This document shows positions 932 to 45,222 of a stretch of 64,000 nt of DNA, piece by piece. The DNA lies in contig VGZC01000005.1 in NCBI GenBank assembly GCA_016872725.1, positions 1-64,000 of the forward strand. The letters are read 5' to 3'. The translations under genes and the position numbers were made by a program. The notes beneath the pieces were generated by a model. It was not told where the DNA came from. It searched no databases and saw only the letters and a program-made list of their open reading frames with translations. How positions within the stretch are numbered: position 1 is the first letter of the stretch; each line of letters begins with the position of its first letter. The DNA is from Planctomycetota bacterium (GTDB taxonomy: Bacteria; Planctomycetota; Planctomycetia; Pirellulales; Pirellulaceae).

Positions 932-3900
932 ATGCGGCAGGATTCAAGAACTCGTTCCGAGCTGTCTTTCTCGCTTCGGTACACGCTCGGCGCGATCGGT
1001 TGTCTCATAGGCCTATCGGTATGGACTTTGCCGCCGTTGCTCGAGGGCGCCGAAGTTCGTCAGGAATCGCGTTCGCTCGGCGCGGACGTCGGCGAAACGG
1101 TGCGCGCGTCGGTCGAAGCGGATTGGATCGAACAGGACCAGAAGTTCTCGAAGGTCTCGCCGGCGCACTTGGCACTCCAGGTTGCTGAATCGCCGACGGT
1201 TACGACTCGTCAGGATGCGGCGGGGGCTGTCGACGGTATCAAGGACGGTCGATTCGGCTTCCACGTCGCGGTCAACGAGACGGATCCATGGTGGCAGGTC
1301 GACCTCGGTCGCGACTATTCGATCGACCGAATCGTCGTCTTCAACCGCACCGACAACGGTTTGGCGCCGCGCACGCGGAATATCGGGATCCAGGTCGCAA
1401 GCGAAACCCGTCCCGGTCAATTCGTGCCCGTCTATCAACATGATGGGACCGTATTTCACGGTATCCGCGAAAACGCACCGCTCGTCGTGCGTTTCGAAGG
1501 CAAAGGCATCCAAGCTCGGATTGTACGACTGCACATGTCTGGGCCGTGCGCGCTCGCGCTGGACGAAGTGGAAGTGTATGCGGTTGACAATCCCAATATG
1601 AATATCGCCTTGAAGAGGCCCGCCGATCAGAAGAGCGTCAGCACGCATTCGCGCGACAAGTCGACGAACCACATCATGTCCGACACGCCGGGTCAGGATG
1701 ACCGCTTCACCTTGAGGCATTCGCGGGAAATCTCGCGCCGCGCGCGGGAGCTTGCCTCGCGACTGCGACCCAGAGCGGACGCAAGGCGTCTCGAACCTCT
1801 GGTGGACCAACTCGAACAACTCGACCTCCGGCTCGACGACGTCGAGTCCGGTTCCTCGCATTCCGAGCCGATTCGTCGGGAAACGTACTTTGCGGCAAGG
1901 CACCTCTTGCGGGCCATCGCATTCACGAATCCCCTGCTCGATATCGACCGGCTCCTGTTCGTCAAGCGGCATCGGGGCAGCTTGCCGCACATTTGCGATC
2001 AGTACTACGGTTTCACGGCTGTTCCCGGCGGAGGGCTCTTTGTGCTCACTGACCCTTTCAGCGAACATCCAAGACTCGCGAATCTCCTCGAAAACGCCGT
2101 CGTCGGCGAGGGACGACTTGCGGGTAGGAGCCTGGACCTCGGAGCCTTTCTTTCACCGGAAGTATCGTACGACGGATCATCGGTCTTCTTCGCGTACACC
2201 GAGAATCGCGAACCGATGCGGTCGTGGGACGAGGTTTGGCCGCCGTCGGAAGGCAAACGGAAGTGGACGCCGACCAATTGCTACCACCTTTTCCGTGTGG
2301 GGTCCGACGGTAACGGACTCGTCCAGTTGACCGACGGCCCTTGGAACGACTTTGATCCGTGCATGCTCCCTAACGGCCGTATCGCGTTTATCTCGGAACG
2401 CCGAGGAGGCTATGTTCGTTGCGGGATCCGAGCCTGCCGGAGCTTTAATCTCTGCTCGATGGACGAGAACGGCGACGACATGATCCCGCTGAGCCACCAC
2501 GAGACGAATGAATGGCATCCAAGCGTCAGCAACGACGGGATGCTCCTGTTCACCCGGTGGGACTACGTGGACCGCAACACGCAGATCGCTCACCATCTGT
2601 GGACCTGCTATCCGGACGGTCGCGACCCGCGCGCTCCCCACGGGAATTATCCGGTCGATCGCAGGGACAGGCCGTGGGCCGAATTGAGTATCCGGGCCAT
2701 CCCCGATTCCGACCGACTCGTCGCCACCGCCGCGCCCCATCATGGATACGCATTCGGCTCGTTGGTGCTGATCGATCGGAGCATCGTCGATGACGGAGGA
2801 AACTCGCAGATCACGCGACTCACACCCGAGGTGCCGTTCCCGGAGGGCGAAGGACCGATTCGCGAGAACGAGGTCTACGGGACGGCATGGCCATTGAGTG
2901 AGGATGATTTCCTTTGCGCCTACGATCCTCAGGCAGCTCATCACGCGATCTACTGGATCGACCGCGCCGGCAACCGGGAACTGATCTACGGCGACCCGCA
3001 CATCGCGTGCATCAGCCCCATGCCGCTCCGAGCGCGCGCCGTGCCTCCCGTGATTCCCGATCAGACCAGGCGGGCGCGAATCGCAACCAGCTCGACGGAG
3101 AACCGCGAATCGCCATTCAAGACATCTCCCGACGAATACAAGCAAAGCGCGGAAACGAAACGACCGTCCTCTTCCGATGCGGCCACCATTGCGCTGCTCA
3201 ACGTGTATGACAGCCGCTTCGAATGGCCCGATGCGACGCAGATCACTCATTTGCGCGTGATCCAGATCCTGCCCAAGTCGACGCCGTCCCGAAATACGCC
3301 TCGTGTGGGTATCGCCGAACAAACGAACGCGCGCGCCGTACTCGGTACGGTACCGGTTGAGACGGACGGAAGCGCTTACTTCGAGGCGCCCCCCGGCAAA
3401 TCGATCTACTTCCAGGCGCTCGACGCGCGCGGCATGGCCGTGCAATCCATGCGAAGCGGGACGTACGTGCACCCCGGTGAGCGATTGACGTGCCAAGGAT
3501 GTCACGAACCGAAACAGCTCGCGCCCGCGCCGCGAGACGGCCCGCCGCTCGCCTTGCTGCGCCCGCCGTCCAAGCTGATGCCCGAGCCCGAAGGTTCCAA
3601 CCCATTCAGCTACGTCCGGCTCGTCCAACCCGTCCTGGACCGGCATTGCGTCGATTGCCATCGGGAGAAAGGAGCGATCGATCTGAGCGGTCCGATCGAG
3701 GTCCGCCGCTGCCCGCGGGACAGCCACAAGCCGGTATCGTTTACGAAATCGTATGACAACCTCGCCGAGAAATTCGGGTTCTTTTTCCACGCGCACAGCA
3801 CGACGAGCATCGCGAATATTCCAATGGACGCGATCGCCGGCGGGCGGACGACCGCCGGACAGTTCGGCGCGAGGGCTTCCAGACTGGTCCATTATCTCGA

Positions 3901-4045
3901 TGATCGGCACTACGGCGTGCGGCTCCCACCCGACGATTTCCGCCGTATAGTGCTCTGGTTGGACTGCAACAGCGAATTCCTCGGCGCGTACGAGGACGCC
4001 GAGGCCCAAGCTCGCGGCGAGAAGATCACGCCCAGCCTGGAGTAG
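932..4045 (+). CDS. Secreted HzsA-like protein with discoidin domain and two CxxCH motifs
   Basis: About 1037 residues. The ATG at 932 is preferred over one at 881 because GAGGGGAG sits just upstream and the protein then begins with a basic n-region and a hydrophobic stretch ending near EGAE, a signal peptide. Residues about 85-220 form an F5/8 type C (discoidin) domain, with PWWQVDLG and a following DRIVVFNRTDN. Next comes a TolB/WD-like propeller typical of the hydrazine synthase alpha middle domain, with CDQYYG, SERRGGYVRCG and TRWDYVDRN. Near the C-terminus are two c-type haem motifs, CQGCH (about residue 854) and CVDCH (about 906). In anammox bacteria this fold belongs to hydrazine synthase. 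No beta/gamma subunit is nearby, so the enzymatic role is unknown. A paralogue without the discoidin domain lies at 42853-45222. A periplasmic redox or sugar-associated role is inference. Confidence 0.8.
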   Translation: MRQDSRTRSELSFSLRYTLGAIGCLIGLSVWTLPPLLEGAEVRQESRSLGADVGETVRASVEADWIEQDQKFSKVSPAHLALQVAESPTVTTRQDAAGAVDGIKDGRFGFHVAVNETDPWWQVDLGRDYSIDRIVVFNRTDNGLAPRTRNIGIQVASETRPGQFVPVYQHDGTVFHGIRENAPLVVRFEGKGIQARIVRLHMSGPCALALDEVEVYAVDNPNMNIALKRPADQKSVSTHSRDKSTNHIMSDTPGQDDRFTLRHSREISRRARELASRLRPRADARRLEPLVDQLEQLDLRLDDVESGSSHSEPIRRETYFAARHLLRAIAFTNPLLDIDRLLFVKRHRGSLPHICDQYYGFTAVPGGGLFVLTDPFSEHPRLANLLENAVVGEGRLAGRSLDLGAFLSPEVSYDGSSVFFAYTENREPMRSWDEVWPPSEGKRKWTPTNCYHLFRVGSDGNGLVQLTDGPWNDFDPCMLPNGRIAFISERRGGYVRCGIRACRSFNLCSMDENGDDMIPLSHHETNEWHPSVSNDGMLLFTRWDYVDRNTQIAHHLWTCYPDGRDPRAPHGNYPVDRRDRPWAELSIRAIPDSDRLVATAAPHHGYAFGSLVLIDRSIVDDGGNSQITRLTPEVPFPEGEGPIRENEVYGTAWPLSEDDFLCAYDPQAAHHAIYWIDRAGNRELIYGDPHIACISPMPLRARAVPPVIPDQTRRARIATSSTENRESPFKTSPDEYKQSAETKRPSSSDAATIALLNVYDSRFEWPDATQITHLRVIQILPKSTPSRNTPRVGIAEQTNARAVLGTVPVETDGSAYFEAPPGKSIYFQALDARGMAVQSMRSGTYVHPGERLTCQGCHEPKQLAPAPRDGPPLALLRPPSKLMPEPEGSNPFSYVRLVQPVLDRHCVDCHREKGAIDLSGPIEVRRCPRDSHKPVSFTKSYDNLAEKFGFFFHAHSTTSIANIPMDAIAGGRTTAGQFGARASRLVHYLDDRHYGVRLPPDDFRRIVLWLDCNSEFLGAYEDAEAQARGEKITPSLE

Positions 4046-4152
4046 TCGAACGGGGAATCGCCAAGTCCCGCTCGGAAGGCCCCATGACGTTCGCGCCACC
4101 TAACAGGTTCGCCGCACGCCGCCTCTCCCTCCCTCGAACCAACAGGTCCATC

Positions 4153-4656
4153 ATGCCGTCACCGCTCAACATCGCGCGAAGCCAATTGGCATCGGCGCGC
4201 GACTACACTCGGACGCTCCTCACCGATCTCGATGATTCACTCTGGTACACGCAACCACCAGGCTGTCCGACCAATATCGCTTGGCAAGTGGCGCACCTCG
4301 CGTTCGCCGAGTACGCCCTGGTCCTGGTCCGTGTGCGCGGGAAGGAGCCGGATGACGAACTTCTTGTCTCGAACGGTTTCTGGAGACGATACAAGAAGGG
4401 GTCCGAGCCGTCCCTTGCCGGCGCCGATGAGCCGACCCCTGCCGAATTGCGAGCGACCCTGGACCGTGTGCACGACCGGTGTCTCACCGAAATGGCCTCG
4501 TTCACCGATAGCCAGCTAGGCGCGCCCGTTCCCGAACCCTATTCAGGCTATCCAAACAAGCTCGGCTCGCTGTTATTCTGTTCCGCGCACGAGATGCTGC
4601 ACGCCGGACAAATCGGGCTCGTGCGCCGCATGCTGGGAAAGAAACCCGTTCGCTAG
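4153..4656 (+). CDS. DinB-fold (DinB/YfiT-like) protein
   Basis: About 167 residues, predicted cytosolic four-helix bundle of the DinB/YfiT superfamily. The metal-binding histidine pattern is visible: one His in WQVAHLAF (N-terminal third) and two in SAHEMLHAGQIGLVRRMLG near the end. Family members are often metal-dependent thiol transferases, but the individual substrate cannot be read. The ATG at 4153 starts the recognisable MPSPLNIARSQL helix; an upstream in-frame ATG at 4084 would add an unconvincing basic leader. The gene follows the HzsA-like gene by about 100 bp on the same strand and may be cotranscribed with it. Confidence 0.75.
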   Translation: MPSPLNIARSQLASARDYTRTLLTDLDDSLWYTQPPGCPTNIAWQVAHLAFAEYALVLVRVRGKEPDDELLVSNGFWRRYKKGSEPSLAGADEPTPAELRATLDRVHDRCLTEMASFTDSQLGAPVPEPYSGYPNKLGSLLFCSAHEMLHAGQIGLVRRMLGKKPVR

Positions 4657-38869: not shown

Positions 38870-41800
38870 TCAGGTCAATTGGAACTCGGGCGAACAGGCG
38901 ATCATGACGAGCAGGCGGGTCAGGATCGCATTCGCCTTGGCCGGGTCAGTCCCCCACTGAGCCGGTTCGGGGAGGGGCTTCAGGAATTCAACCAACGCCG
39001 CACGCTTGGCGTCGGCGAGCGGAACGGACCAGAGGCTGTGGACCAGGTAATCGACGACCTCGCCATGGTTCTGGAAGGTCTTTCCGGCGAGCACGGTGCC
39101 GACCACGTCGATGCCGGTCTGGCCAGCCCTTGGGCGCTGTTGGAGGGTTTCGGCGAGCACATTGTAGCGGTTGAGCACGCGGCTCGTGGTGATCCACGTT
39201 CGGCCGCCCTGCCACCCGAACACGCTCGGCGGCTCGAACACGTCTTGTCCCATCTCGCGGAGCGCCGAGACAAGGTACGGATAGTCGGCCGTCTTGAGGC
39301 CGAGATCGCGATGGAGTCCGACGATCATCTGGACAGGGCTCTTGATCTCGGTCCGCATCGACTGCTCGCTGTAGAATTCCTCCGAAAGGAAGAGGTTTTC
39401 GAGCATCGGAGTGAGTTCGTAGTTATTGAGCTTGATCACACTGGCGAGCGATTCGACCGTGTCGATCGATGGGCTCGCATGCGCGAAGAACGAGAACATC
39501 TGCCGCGCGATGAACTTCGGCGGCGCGGGCGTTTCGAGGATGATCCTGACGAAGTCATCGCCGCTGAAGTTGCCCGATTTGCCGAGCACCGTCTTGGGCT
39601 CGGTGTCGTGGTTATCGGTGACGAATCGGAACTGGCCCGTCCAGGGATCGTAGGTGAATCCGGTGAGCGCCCGGGCGCCTTGCCGGATGTCGGGTTCGCC
39701 GTACCCCTGGTCGCGACCCATGCTGAACAACTCCATGATCTCGCGGGCGAGGTTCTCGTTCGCCTTGCCTTTGACATTGGTGTCGTTGTTCAGGTATTTC
39801 AGCATGGCCGCGTCATGCGCGATGCCATGGAGCAGGGTATCGAAGTTGCCGGCCGCGTTGTCGCGGAAGAGCTGGTTCTGGAGGTACATGTAGTAGCTGT
39901 CGCCGACATCGCTGTACTGCGACGGAATCTGCCCGTGCCAGAAGAGGGTGAGTTTCTCTTCGAGAGGGCGGGGCGATTCGATCATGCGCCGGACCCACCA
40001 CGCCTTCATCGCTTGGATTTGGCGTTGATCGGCGGCGACCCGTTCGTTGTTGATCCGTTGTTGCTCCTCGCCGGAGAGCGCCGGGTGATAATTTTCCGGC
40101 CGGTTCTTCGGATAGGCGACAAACGCGACGTCGGCGGCCGGCAGGTCCTTGAAGTGCACCATGTGCCGGACCGCGCCGTGCAGCCCCATGGCGTGCAGTT
40201 TGGCGACTTCCTCCTGCGTGCCGCCGAATCCGGCTCGAACCATCAGGTGCCGGGCCTTGGCCATGTCCCATGCGGCGGGATCGAGCGGTTTGAGTCCGCC
40301 GTAGGCGGCGAAGCGGGCAGCCGCGATCTTGGGCGGTCCGCTGTCGACGGCCTGGCGTTTTTCGCCGACCGCTTTTTCGGCGGCGTCCTTCTCGGCCGTG
40401 GCGGCGGCGAGCGCCTGTTGGGCGGGCGCGACTTTCGGTTCGGTGTCCGCAACGACTTTGGCGAGTTCCGCGGCCTTGGTCTGGGCGGCGGTGAGCGCGG
40501 CGACCGTCTTTTCGAGGGCGGCCTGGGCGGCCTTGAGTCCGTCGTCGGCGGCCTTCGCTTTCTCGGCGGCGGCGGTCGACGCGGCGGTCGTATCCGCCAC
40601 GGCCTTCTCCGCGGCCGCTTTTTCCTCGGCCGTGCCGGCCTTGCCGACCGCTTCCTGGGCGGCCGTCACGGCGGCGGCGGCGTCCTTGGCCGCCTGATCG
40701 GCGGCCGTCTTGGCGGCCGTCGCGTCGGCGACCGCCTTGTCCGCCGCTTCCTTATCCTTGGTCGCGGTGGTCACCACGGTCGCCGCGGCGGCGTGATCGG
40801 CCTGCGCCTTGGCGAGCGCGTCGGTGGCCGCCTTGAGATCGGCGGTCGTCTTGTTGAACGCGGCGATCTTGGGCTGCAGCGCCTGGTTGGCCGCGTTGAG
40901 CGCCGCTTCATTCGCCCGCAGTTCGTCGTTCGCGGAGCGCGCTTCGCGATAGAACCGCTGCTGCATCATGCGATCGATGCCCTCGCGGACCGCGACCTGA
41001 TTGGCAAGCGCGCCTTCGACGGCGGCGAGTTCCGCCTGCGCCTTGTCGGCGGCCGCCTGCGCTTCGGCCGCGGCGGCGGCGAGCTGTTCGTTCTGGGCCT
41101 TCATGGCCGCCTCGCGGTCGGCGGCCGCCTTCGCGATCGCCGCCTTGTCGGCGGCCAGCGATACCTGGGCCTCGGGTGCGACCACGAGCGCCTGCACGGC
41201 CGCCTTCAACGTCGCGGCGTACGCTTGCTGGGCACGTTCGAGGTCGGCGGCTTTCGGCGGCACCGCCTGTTCGGCGAGCGCGCGAGCGGCCTCGGCCTTC
41301 TTACCCGCTTCGGTTTCCCGAGTCAGGTCTTTCGCGGCGCGCGTCTTGGCGATGCGCTTCTCGACACCTTCCTGAGCCGCCTTGATGCGCGCCTCGGCCT
41401 GCTTCACCGCCTCGACCTTCTGCGCCAGATCGGCTTGGACCTGCTGCAGGGCGGCCGTCGCCGTTTGGACGACCTTTTCCGCTTCGATGAGCGGCACGCG
41501 CAGTTCCAGGGCGAGCGCCTTCGCCGGGTCGCTCCGATATTCCGGCAAGAGGCGTCCGACGGCGTGCAGCGCGGCGGCATAGGCCTTCGCGGCGTTCTCG
41601 GCGTCGGTCGTCTTCTGCGCCCGATCGGCGTCGGTCGCCTGCTTGAGCGCGGCGGCGGCCCCTTGGACGACCGCGTCGGCGGCCGCGAGATCGGCGAACG
41701 CCTTGGAAACGGCCGCGTTCGCCGCCGACTGCTGGTCGGACGTCGCCTTCGAAAAGGCGGCCTTCTCGATCGCCTGCTTCGCGTCGCGGATCTTCGTCGC

Positions 41801-42295
41801 GCGGTCGGCTTCCGATTGCCGAACCAGGGCCTTGATCTGAGCGGCCGATCCTTCGGCCGCCGTGAGCGCCGCCGTGTACTTCTCCTCAGCCGCCTTCGCC
41901 TCGGCCTCGCGCTGCGGCAATACCTGCTGCGCCGCGTCGAATTCGACCTTGCGCTGCGCCGCCAATTCCTGAGCGAGCTCGTACACTTCGAGCGCGTCCT
42001 CTTTCGCGGCCGGTTCGGCCTTCTCGTACTTGTCCTTCGCCCCGTTGACCTGATCGGTGGTCACGCGATTGTTGTACGCGGCCGAATTGAACCGATTCGT
42101 ATCCAGATTGTCGCGGGCCGCCTGCAACGCGTTCCGCGCCGCGACGACGACCTTGTCCGCTTCCGCGAGCGCCGCGGTCGCCGCCTTGACCGCCTCGACC
42201 GGATTCGGGTCTTGAGCGGACAGCCGCGAACCGAGCGCCGACGACGCCCATACAAGGCCTCCCAGGAAAACAACGGATACCCATCGACGATTCAT
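38870..42295 (-). CDS. Exported DUF1800 protein with ~640-residue Ala-rich coiled coil
   Basis: About 1141 residues. GGGGGAGGA precedes the ATG at 42295. The signal peptide is WVSVVFLGGLVWASSALG followed by AQDPNPVEAV. Residues about 30-665 are an almost uninterrupted run of Ala/Lys/Glu/Asp heptads (e.g. AADKAVADATAAKTAADQA), a long coiled coil. From about 670 the DUF1800 domain follows: AKARHLMVRAGFGG, MLKYLNNDTNVKGKANENLAREIMELFSMGRDQGYGEPDIR, GFTYDPWTGQF, VFGWQGGRTWI. The coil is unusual for DUF1800 and could span the periplasm or hold the enzyme away from its anchor; that is speculation. The rest of the pair is the DUF1501 gene. Confidence 0.9.
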   Translation of the reverse strand: MNRRWVSVVFLGGLVWASSALGSRLSAQDPNPVEAVKAATAALAEADKVVVAARNALQAARDNLDTNRFNSAAYNNRVTTDQVNGAKDKYEKAEPAAKEDALEVYELAQELAAQRKVEFDAAQQVLPQREAEAKAAEEKYTAALTAAEGSAAQIKALVRQSEADRATKIRDAKQAIEKAAFSKATSDQQSAANAAVSKAFADLAAADAVVQGAAAALKQATDADRAQKTTDAENAAKAYAAALHAVGRLLPEYRSDPAKALALELRVPLIEAEKVVQTATAALQQVQADLAQKVEAVKQAEARIKAAQEGVEKRIAKTRAAKDLTRETEAGKKAEAARALAEQAVPPKAADLERAQQAYAATLKAAVQALVVAPEAQVSLAADKAAIAKAAADREAAMKAQNEQLAAAAAEAQAAADKAQAELAAVEGALANQVAVREGIDRMMQQRFYREARSANDELRANEAALNAANQALQPKIAAFNKTTADLKAATDALAKAQADHAAAATVVTTATKDKEAADKAVADATAAKTAADQAAKDAAAAVTAAQEAVGKAGTAEEKAAAEKAVADTTAASTAAAEKAKAADDGLKAAQAALEKTVAALTAAQTKAAELAKVVADTEPKVAPAQQALAAATAEKDAAEKAVGEKRQAVDSGPPKIAAARFAAYGGLKPLDPAAWDMAKARHLMVRAGFGGTQEEVAKLHAMGLHGAVRHMVHFKDLPAADVAFVAYPKNRPENYHPALSGEEQQRINNERVAADQRQIQAMKAWWVRRMIESPRPLEEKLTLFWHGQIPSQYSDVGDSYYMYLQNQLFRDNAAGNFDTLLHGIAHDAAMLKYLNNDTNVKGKANENLAREIMELFSMGRDQGYGEPDIRQGARALTGFTYDPWTGQFRFVTDNHDTEPKTVLGKSGNFSGDDFVRIILETPAPPKFIARQMFSFFAHASPSIDTVESLASVIKLNNYELTPMLENLFLSEEFYSEQSMRTEIKSPVQMIVGLHRDLGLKTADYPYLVSALREMGQDVFEPPSVFGWQGGRTWITTSRVLNRYNVLAETLQQRPRAGQTGIDVVGTVLAGKTFQNHGEVVDYLVHSLWSVPLADAKRAALVEFLKPLPEPAQWGTDPAKANAILTRLLVMIACSPEFQLT

Positions 42296-42852
42296 GCGAA
42301 ATCCTCCCCCTCGCGCAATCAAGAGGTTTGACGGAATACGGTTCACGGGATCGTGATCCCCCACACGGCCTCCGCGGCCAACCGGCGGCCCGGCGATTCC
42401 ACGCCGACGCGCCGCGTACCCAACTCGATCTAACTCGTCATCTCGACAACGGCTCTCGACGACTGTCTTGTATGGCGTGCGGCCGCGCGTCGCGCGGTCG
42501 TGGATGCGTATCGGTGTGCTTGTGCGGGGCGTTGCGAACAACCACTCAACCATGCGCGACATGCGCCGCGGCGGAGGGCGATTGGTTTGGTTTAACCGTA
42601 ATCCATGGTTCGGGCGGCGTCAAGTATTCCGACAATGCCGTCCATGCGTTCGGGGGGAGCGGCGCCGATCGCAGCGATCAGCGCGGTTGCGGAAGAATCG
42701 GGTGCTCGGTCGCCGCGAACGACTCGCGCCCTCCGAACGTCTCGCGAAAAAAACGACAAGAACGCGTTTCCATTCCGGGCGCGCGTGCGTTTTAATGGAG
42801 GCCGTCGGGCGGGGCCGCCGCGCCCGAGGCATGCCGGGAGGAGGACGAGATA
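42296..42852. other. Divergent intergenic region
   Basis: This 557-bp stretch separates the minus-strand DUF1800 start from the plus-strand HzsA-like start. It should hold two promoters. A GC-rich palindrome CCGCGCG-T-CGCGCGG (42483-42497) is present but could occur by chance in DNA this GC-rich. Short frames here look noncoding, and GGGAGGAGG precedes the ATG at 42853. Confidence 0.4.
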
Positions 42853-45222
42853 ATGATCACGCGCGTTGGAATCGACGTTCGAGTGTCCACCTGGTCTTGG
42901 CTGGGAATCGGGATCGGATGCCTCGCTCTCGCCGAACTCGGCGCGGCGCCCCTCGCGGCGCGCGGCGAGGAACCTCGACGGGCCGGCGCGACGGGCGGTC
43001 TCGACGCGATCGCCGACGCGATCGACCGAGCCCGCGCGCTCGCCGCGCGGATTCGCGTCATCGAGGACGCCGATCCAATACGTCTCGACGGACTCCTCGC
43101 CGAACTCGAACCGCTCGACACGCGCCGGCGCGAACTCCTGTCCGAATCGTCCGCCGACCCCAAGGCGATCGACGAGCTCGGCATCCGCGTCGCCGCCGTC
43201 AAACGCCGCATCGCGTTCGCCAACCCGCGGCTCGATTTCGACCAACTGCTCTTCATCAAGCGGCACGACTCGGTCGGCGTCTACCACATGTGCGACCAGT
43301 ACTACGGCTGCAACGCCAGACCCGGCGGCGGGCTCTACGCGCTGCGCGATCCGTTCGGCCCCGAACCAAGGCTCGTCAACCTCCTCGAAAACGCGACCGT
43401 GAGGAACGGGCGGCTCAAAGGCCAAAAGCTCGATACGGGTTCATTCCTTTCGCCCGAGCTTTCCTTCGACGGTAAGACCATTCTCTTCGCATACAGCGAG
43501 GCGAAGGCCTGGGAGAAATATCAGGGGAAGGAAGCGTACGACTGGAAGCCCGAATACAGCTTCCACATCTTCAGGTGCAACGCGGACGGTTCCGAACTCA
43601 CACAGCTCACCGACGGCGATTGGAACGACTTCGATCCGTGCTTCCTTCCGAACGGCCGGATCGCGTTCGTGTCGGAACGCCGCGGCGGATTCCTGCGGTG
43701 CGGACGGCATTGCCCCGTCTACACGCTGCACTCGATGGAACCGGACGGATCGGACATCGTTCAATTGAGTTATCACGAGACGCATGAGTGGCACCCGAGC
43801 GTGACGAACGACGGCATGCTGGTCTATACGCGATGGGACTACGTCGATCGGGACACGAACATCGCGCACCATATCTGGACCTGCTATCCCGACGGGCGGG
43901 ATCCACGCTCGTTCCACGGCAACTACCCCGACCGGCGCGAGAGCCGTCCGTGGATGGAAATGGCGATCCGCGCGATCCCGGGTTCGCACAAGTTCGTCGC
44001 GTCGACCGGCGCGCACCATGGCCATGAATTCGGATCGCTCGTCCTGATCGATCCCCACGCGGTCGACGACAATGCGTCGTCGCAGCTCACGCGGATCACG
44101 CCCGAGACGCCGTTCCCCGAGGCGGAAGGCGGCAAGGCGTCGGTCCGCGAGCACCAGGCCTACGGCACGCCGTGGCCGCTGAGCGAGGACGACTACCTGT
44201 GCGTGTACGATCCGAAGATCGAGCGGCGGGCCGTTTATTGGATCGATCGATTCGGAAACCGGGAGCGGATCCACGGCGACGCGGAGATCCCGTGCGTGAG
44301 TCCGATCCCCCTCCGCGCCCGGCCTCGGCCTCCCGTGATCGCCGATCAGACGATGCAGACCGCGCGGGCCCGGTCGAGCGCCGTCGAGCCACCTTCCGCG
44401 ACGATCGCCGTGCTCAATATCTACGACTCCGACTTCGATTGGCCCGAGGGAACGCGGATCGACGCGCTCCGGGTGATCCAGGTCCTTCCGAAGACGACGG
44501 CGCCCCCGAACGAACCGAGGATCGGCGTGGCCACGCAGACCAACGCGCGCGCCGTGCTGGGCACGGTGCCGGTCGAGAGCGACGGGAGCGCTTACTTCGA
44601 GGCGCCGGCGGGTAAGGAGCTGTATTTCCAGGCGATCGATTCCGAGGGGATGGCCGTGCAGTCGATGCGCAGCGGCACCTACGCGCATCCCGGCGAAAAG
44701 CTCACCTGCCAGGGATGCCACGAACCGAAGCAACGCAGCCCCGTTCGCCCGTCCATCGCGCCGCTCGCGCTGCGCCGCGCTCCCTCGGTGATCGCGCCGG
44801 AAGCCGAGGGCTCCAATCCGTTCAGCTATGTCCGACTTGTCCAACCGGTCCTCGATCGCCACTGCGTCGCGTGCCACACCGAGCGCAAGGCGATCGACTT
44901 GAGCGGTTCGATCACTCCGACGCACGGTTGGACCCAGTCGTATCTGGCGCTCGCCGAGAAATACGGGTTCTACTTCCACGTCACCAACGGCTCGATCCAC
45001 ATGGGCGTTCACGGAGGAAGCCGCACCATTCCCGGGAAGTTCGGAGCGCGCGGATCGACGTTGATCGAGTACCTCGACGAGCGGCATCACGGAGTGCGGC
45101 TCGCGCCCGAGGAACGCCATCGGTTGACGCTCTGGCTCGATTGCAATTCCGAGTTCTTCGGCTCGTACGAGAACACCGACGCGCAAAGCCGAGGCCAGAT
45201 CGTCCGTCCCACATTGGATTAG
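42853..45222 (+). CDS. Secreted HzsA-like protein with two CxxCH motifs (paralogue)
   Basis: 789 residues. The signal peptide (WLGIGIGCLALAELGAAPLA) is followed by a short helical region and then a propeller matching residues of the 932-4045 protein: FIKRHDSVGVYHMCDQYYG, LVNLLENATVRNGRLKGQ, AFVSERRGGFLRCG, YTRWDYVDRDTNIAHHIW. Haem motifs are CQGCH (about residue 619) and CVACH (about 671). It lacks the discoidin domain. In the anammox enzyme one haem uses an unusual tyrosine ligand shortly after its CxxCH; here the residues after CQGCH are EPKQ with no tyrosine, as in the first copy, so the active site is probably different. Function unknown. Confidence 0.82.
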   Translation: MITRVGIDVRVSTWSWLGIGIGCLALAELGAAPLAARGEEPRRAGATGGLDAIADAIDRARALAARIRVIEDADPIRLDGLLAELEPLDTRRRELLSESSADPKAIDELGIRVAAVKRRIAFANPRLDFDQLLFIKRHDSVGVYHMCDQYYGCNARPGGGLYALRDPFGPEPRLVNLLENATVRNGRLKGQKLDTGSFLSPELSFDGKTILFAYSEAKAWEKYQGKEAYDWKPEYSFHIFRCNADGSELTQLTDGDWNDFDPCFLPNGRIAFVSERRGGFLRCGRHCPVYTLHSMEPDGSDIVQLSYHETHEWHPSVTNDGMLVYTRWDYVDRDTNIAHHIWTCYPDGRDPRSFHGNYPDRRESRPWMEMAIRAIPGSHKFVASTGAHHGHEFGSLVLIDPHAVDDNASSQLTRITPETPFPEAEGGKASVREHQAYGTPWPLSEDDYLCVYDPKIERRAVYWIDRFGNRERIHGDAEIPCVSPIPLRARPRPPVIADQTMQTARARSSAVEPPSATIAVLNIYDSDFDWPEGTRIDALRVIQVLPKTTAPPNEPRIGVATQTNARAVLGTVPVESDGSAYFEAPAGKELYFQAIDSEGMAVQSMRSGTYAHPGEKLTCQGCHEPKQRSPVRPSIAPLALRRAPSVIAPEAEGSNPFSYVRLVQPVLDRHCVACHTERKAIDLSGSITPTHGWTQSYLALAEKYGFYFHVTNGSIHMGVHGGSRTIPGKFGARGSTLIEYLDERHHGVRLAPEERHRLTLWLDCNSEFFGSYENTDAQSRGQIVRPTLD

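Follow-up and report, generated by a model that had tools for sequence, protein, structure and literature searches.

HzsA-like dihaem cytochrome c with an F-type-lectin-like front domain, one of 28 HzsA-like genes in a Planctomycetota genome

The window, i.e., the whole stretch of 64,000 nucleotides of Planctomycetota DNA that we analysed, carries at 932-4045 (+) an intact gene for an HzsA-like dihaem cytochrome c, which we read as 1037 codons encoding 1037 amino acids. The reading frame is open between a TTG at 881 and the stop at 4045, and the ATG start at 932 is preceded by a Shine-Dalgarno-like GAGGGGAG, a good ribosome-binding site. The product has a signal-like N-terminus and a lectin-like module, followed by a propeller, an HZS_alpha domain, and a cytochrome domain in the order found in HzsA, the alpha subunit of hydrazine synthase. 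Residues 1 to ~42 (932-1057, +), a hydrophobic stretch followed by EGAEV, read as a predicted Sec signal peptide. An F5/8C (discoidin) domain occupies residues 91-203 (1202-1540, +; PF00754, E = 1.6e-11), a predicted three-helix segment lies ahead of the propeller at residues 257-330 (1700-1921, +), and a TolB-like beta-propeller, six-bladed in HzsA, was placed at residues ~335-700 (1934-3031, +) by profile alignment and the predicted model, with a weak PD40 propeller repeat at residues 464-494 in Pfam. The HZS_alpha middle domain follows at residues 771-859 (3242-3508, +; PF18582, E = 2.2e-21), and the two haem-binding motifs are CQGCH at residues 854-858 (3491-3505, +) and CVDCH at residues 906-910 (3647-3661, +). 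Both Pfam assignments lie over their gathering cut-offs, HZS_alpha with 76.7 bits against 26.6 (an excess of 50 bits) and F5/8C with 44.9 bits against 28.2. The original prediction had let the protein begin with F5/8C: The domain is indeed there, but not at the very start, as it follows the signal peptide and ~50 further residues. Downstream by 38 bp, an open reading frame with a DinB_2 superfamily domain lies on the same strand (4084-4656, +), and cotranscription of the two genes is possible.

The homology of the window protein to HzsA is far beyond chance. A profile built on 26 of the HzsA-like proteins in this genome (L056, a misframed ORF, was left out) matches HzsA of Candidatus Kuenenia stuttgartiensis (PDB 5c2v) with an E value of 5.7e-45, in an alignment that spans the propeller, the middle domain, and the C-terminal cytochrome domain. 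An AlphaFold model that had the window protein plus 22 relatives as its input reached a mean pLDDT of 59, with mostly 80-95 in the propeller and ~24 in the lectin part. Foldseek returned 5c2v as the top PDB match of this model (E = 5.5e-24; next TolB, 1.8e-11), and VIA-align likewise ranked 5c2v first (Z = 34.0, 546 residues, rmsd 4.3, model residues 334-1023), with all three HzsA domains covered. The early reading of a two-haem, HzsA-like protein fused to F5/8C, made from the propeller and the two CxxCH motifs, is thus borne out by Pfam, by the 5c2v profile match, and by the model alignment, and the resemblance extends as homology over all three domains.

We located the haem sites through the HMM alignment to 5c2v, where the two CxxCH motifs land on those of haem alpha-I (C583-H587) and haem alpha-II (C685-H689). 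Adding 27 to the chain index of 5c2v yields the published numbering (His587, Tyr591, His689, and His772), and since these published residue numbers fit the alignment, the first CxxCH corresponds to the alpha-I site and the second to the alpha-II site. H993 (3908-3910, +) aligns within one residue of Kuenenia His772, which makes it the candidate distal ligand of haem alpha-II. Across 26 divergent paralogues, the alpha-I CxxCH was conserved in 26/26, the second CxxCH in 25/26, H993 in 24/26, and a propeller cysteine, C497 (2420-2422, +), in 25/26; HH603-604 is kept in most of the aligned paralogues, and an RWDY segment is strongly conserved across very divergent ones. The window protein hence shares with Kuenenia HzsA the domain order, a CxxCH at both haem positions, and a conserved His near His772, whereas it differs by an extra lectin-like module and a helical segment.

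It differs further in the features that define a hydrazine synthase. In HzsA, haem alpha-I is ligated by Tyr591, four residues past His587, which itself binds zinc (PMC12607021, PMC12758564). At the Tyr591 position, the window protein has Q862, and a Tyr was found there in 0/26 aligned paralogues. On the NCBIfam HzsA equivalog model NF052339, the window protein scored 48 bits, far under the cut-off of 800. No beta or gamma subunit lies beside the gene, which has ~930 bases upstream before the contig start and DinB_2 downstream. Profile searches of the genome found no canonical HzsB, HzsC, HDH, or anammox operon, in agreement with the original observation that anammox genes were missing nearby, and the genome-wide check for beta and gamma subunits that had been called for returned just two weak beta-gamma-like matches, one on contig C37 and the other on C7, and no complete hydrazine synthase operon. 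A true hydrazine synthase is rejected on the basis of the NF052339 score, the loss of Tyr591, and the missing partners. That the gene is a divergent but genuine HzsA of an unrecognised anammox bacterium is extremely improbable, despite the common fold and haem motifs, the beta-gamma-like fusion upstream of an HzsA-like gene on C37, and an HAO-like protein in the genome: The C37 fusion scored 183 bits against a cut-off of 1250, and the HAO-like protein, the sole one in the genome, had HDH as its best curated model with 67 bits against 900. HzsA homologues of this kind were judged incapable of hydrazine formation in PMC12758564, with which the lack of hydrazine synthase identity here agrees.

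L053 (4918-9281, contig C37) encodes a fused seven-bladed propeller and dihaem MauG-like protein that resembles an HzsB-HzsC fusion; the HzsA-like gene that it immediately precedes is truncated by the contig end. L083 (5859-7946, contig C7) is a second beta-gamma-like propeller-dihaem protein, with no listed HzsA-like gene on its contig. L082 (772-2373, contig C1) is the octahaem HAO-like protein and carries an N-terminal membrane anchor. The two beta-gamma-like genes could point to an alpha/beta-gamma complex that converts some other nitrogen compound or small molecule, with the partner of the window protein encoded elsewhere, akin to the operons of clades I-IV described in PMC12758564; a broad family with alternative substrates has also been suggested for HzsA homologues (PMC10732223). 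We judge such a complex unlikely here: Only two beta-gamma-like genes stand against 28 alpha-like ones, with none near the window gene, and the C37 alpha-like protein, the one that adjoins a beta-gamma-like gene, belongs to another clade of the tree, one with full support. Clades I-IV, from Planctomycetota and Desulfobacterota, share with the window protein the HZS_alpha fold, the alpha-I CxxCH, and the lack of Tyr591, but they were chosen for co-located beta-gamma genes, and no glycan modules are described for them in the sections consulted; clade I reportedly lacks an equivalent of His772 and clades II and III the alpha-II site, whereas the window protein has a second CxxCH and H993.

The front domain resembles F-type lectins, which are its closest solved relatives. 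When residues 78-222 were searched alone with phmmer, we obtained F-type lectins and hardly anything else, led by hPAF (4gwi, 4.9e-10) and followed by 3cqo, 2j22, and 1k12, a set that includes FBP32, a streptococcal fucolectin, and eel agglutinin. The His52-Arg79-Arg86 triad of the eel lectin (AAA; numbering from PMC5712786) aligns with H111-R139-R147 of the window protein, i.e., with a candidate triad His at 1262-1264 (+) and two candidate Arg at the ends of RTDNGLAPR (1346-1372, +). Compared with the published F-type motif HX24RXDX4(R/K) (PMC5712786), H111, R139, D141, and R147 are all present at a longer spacing: Between His and Arg there is one residue more than in AAA, and the two Arg are as far apart as in Streptococcus mitis hPAF, a solved F-type lectin with the same R-X-D-X5-R spacing. 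Of the four F-type-lectin-like modules in the genome, three keep the triad; it recurs with a 27-residue His-Arg spacing in the paralogues on C43 and C70, and the related copy on C74 lacks the last Arg. The motif alone occurred 12 times against 9.1 expected by shuffling, which is not significant, and we give weight only to where it lies within the aligned domain. The original prediction left the ligand as sugars or lipids. Because the triad is kept here and the lipid-binding factor V C2 type is without it (PMC5712786), a sugar is favoured over a lipid, to judge from the residues, and a lipid-binding discoidin is disfavoured. The module shares with AAA, FBP32, S. mitis hPAF, and the CBM47-type fucolectins a similarity of E 5e-10 and, as a candidate, the His-Arg-Arg triad, but it differs from them by its fusion to a haem protein, and fucose binding is in its case a prediction.

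The gene is not the single oddity that it first seemed. Searching the 5.24-Mb genome with PF18582, we found 28 matches over the cut-off on 18 contigs, 26 of them near full-length and two fragments, another contrast with HzsA. A second copy lies in the window itself (42853-45222, +; 789 amino acids, 59% identical, no N-terminal module), divergent from the gene of a DUF1800 protein (38870-42562, -), and tandem copies occur on contigs C30, C70, and C74. About half of the paralogues carry glycan-type modules. Among the add-on modules, F5/8C is present on eight paralogues, FGE-like C-terminal domains on five, and LamG on two (one of them under the cut-off), while others bear NPCBM, CBM6 (just under the cut-off), HEAT repeats, or none; one HzsA-like protein (L054, 5673-9647, contig C25) carries HEAT repeats at its C-terminus and has lost its second haem motif. 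In a tree computed from 25 cores, proteins with the F-type-lectin-like module fall on three separate branches, and the sister of the window protein is the 42853-45222 copy, 65% identical in the core and without a front module. This scatter, together with a sister that lacks the module, indicates that modules have been gained and lost.

Homologues are distributed unevenly beyond this genome. PF18582 matches were found in 28/146 genomes at the order level and in 58/294 at the phylum level. The listed members of one family of the order have 3-29 copies, and sampled genomes of the host's own family have 0 or 1, against 28 in this one. The closest core homologues share 42-52% identity and belong to Pirellulales, other Planctomycetota, Lentisphaerae, Kiritimatiellae, and a Bacteroidetes bin; the Kiritimatiellae sequences are from rumen and gut, and several rumen genomes are among the closest core relatives. 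Where the N-terminus of the closest homologues was present, no F5/8C domain aligning with that of the window protein was found.

We propose, with a probability of roughly 0.5, that the gene encodes an exported dihaem c-type cytochrome on an HzsA scaffold, held on glycan by its lectin-like module, and not a hydrazine synthase. The glycan would be of a fucose or galactose type, and the lectin-like module would keep the protein on it either in the periplasm or at the surface. With Tyr591 missing, the alpha-I haem is probably ligated by the His of its own CxxCH motif, and together with conserved propeller residues (C497, the HHETNEWHP segment, and HH603-604) it may form the redox site, as the catalytic haem. 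The haem at the alpha-II position would be bis-His and pass electrons to or from a carrier in the periplasm. A wire from haem to haem is not supported, since the alpha-II haem of HzsA is too far from the other haems for efficient electron transfer (PMC12607021). The 28 paralogues would then represent one redox core aimed at different ligands via exchangeable modules, and as a committed guess for the activity we put forward a redox step, oxidative or reductive, in the utilisation of glycans. A simpler account holds that this is a plain electron-transfer or adhesion protein, whose haems carry electrons and whose propeller and lectin part serve contacts with proteins or the cell surface. Here, the second haem is probably bis-His, propellers of the TolB type frequently serve as platforms for interactions, beta-propellers dominate the structure match list, and F5/8C has been counted as a protein-interaction domain (PMC5615132), yet the conservation of the alpha-I motif, C497, HH603-604, and RWDY in divergent paralogues suggests an active site, and we take this account to be possible but doubtful.

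The surroundings of the copies bear on the proposed glycan-directed redox enzyme in both directions. Some HzsA-like copies adjoin carbohydrate genes (GH127, GH32, a SASA esterase, GFO/IDH/MocA, and a GSDH-cytochrome), and others have housekeeping neighbours such as polyphosphate kinase and ArgRS. GFO/IDH/MocA genes occurred 11 times within 10 kb of copies against 3.9 expected, with several clustered on two contigs, and their enrichment at 5 kb was not significant. Sulfatases were not enriched within 10 kb (1/24 near, against 1.8 expected), and across 23 related loci no conserved gene neighbour was found in more than 4. Given these weak neighbour statistics and the lack of a conserved neighbour, the glycan role is a reasoned guess. 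The surface redox protein acting on polymers of the original prediction would fit the export, the two c-haem motifs, and the glycan-type modules, and is to be taken as a possibility. The neighbour, sulfatase, and GFO/IDH/MocA results count against the proposal, as do the housekeeping neighbours and the missing lectin module of the closest homologues. On a related point, active FGEs have a cysteine after RGGSW, and the FGE-like C-terminal domains of the five paralogues concerned (L041, L037, L042, L043, and L044) lack it, which makes it unlikely, from these sequences, that they act as sulfatase activators.

Previous work has already described distant HzsA homologues that lack the key residues, whereas the copy number and the glycan-module shuffling are newer. 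Outside anammox bacteria, PMC12758564 reports clades I-IV and >600 structural matches named HZS_alpha domain proteins, and PMC10732223 likewise includes such homologues. In the openly accessible main texts found by a literature search, neither a genome with 28 copies nor glycan-module shuffling on an HzsA core is described. The origin of hydrazine synthase is open, and a recent survey reported few alpha-subunit homologues; 28 modular versions in a non-anammox genome constitute a family in which an ancestral activity of the HzsA fold could be tested. More broadly, haem redox enzymes directed at glycans may form a large modular class in which exchangeable lectin-type modules aim an HzsA-fold core at different polysaccharides; HzsA would be a specialised offshoot that gained Tyr591, a picture that we consider rather unlikely as it stands. 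If the glycan link is true, it would amount to a haem-based route of carbohydrate utilisation that had gone unrecognised in Planctomycetota and related gut bacteria. In metagenomes, HZS_alpha annotations must not be counted as anammox.

A published parallel exists in the PSCyt cytochromes of Verrucomicrobia, which are combined with CBM domains (PMC5615132). PSCyt1-3 resemble the HzsA-like family in being exported c-type cytochromes of the PVC group with multiplied copies and fusions to LamG, NPCBM, CBM6, and F5/8C, but their redox core is a different one. A Pfam search detected no PSCyt domain in the window protein even at an E value of 10, and PSCyt1 appeared below threshold in two HzsA-like paralogues.
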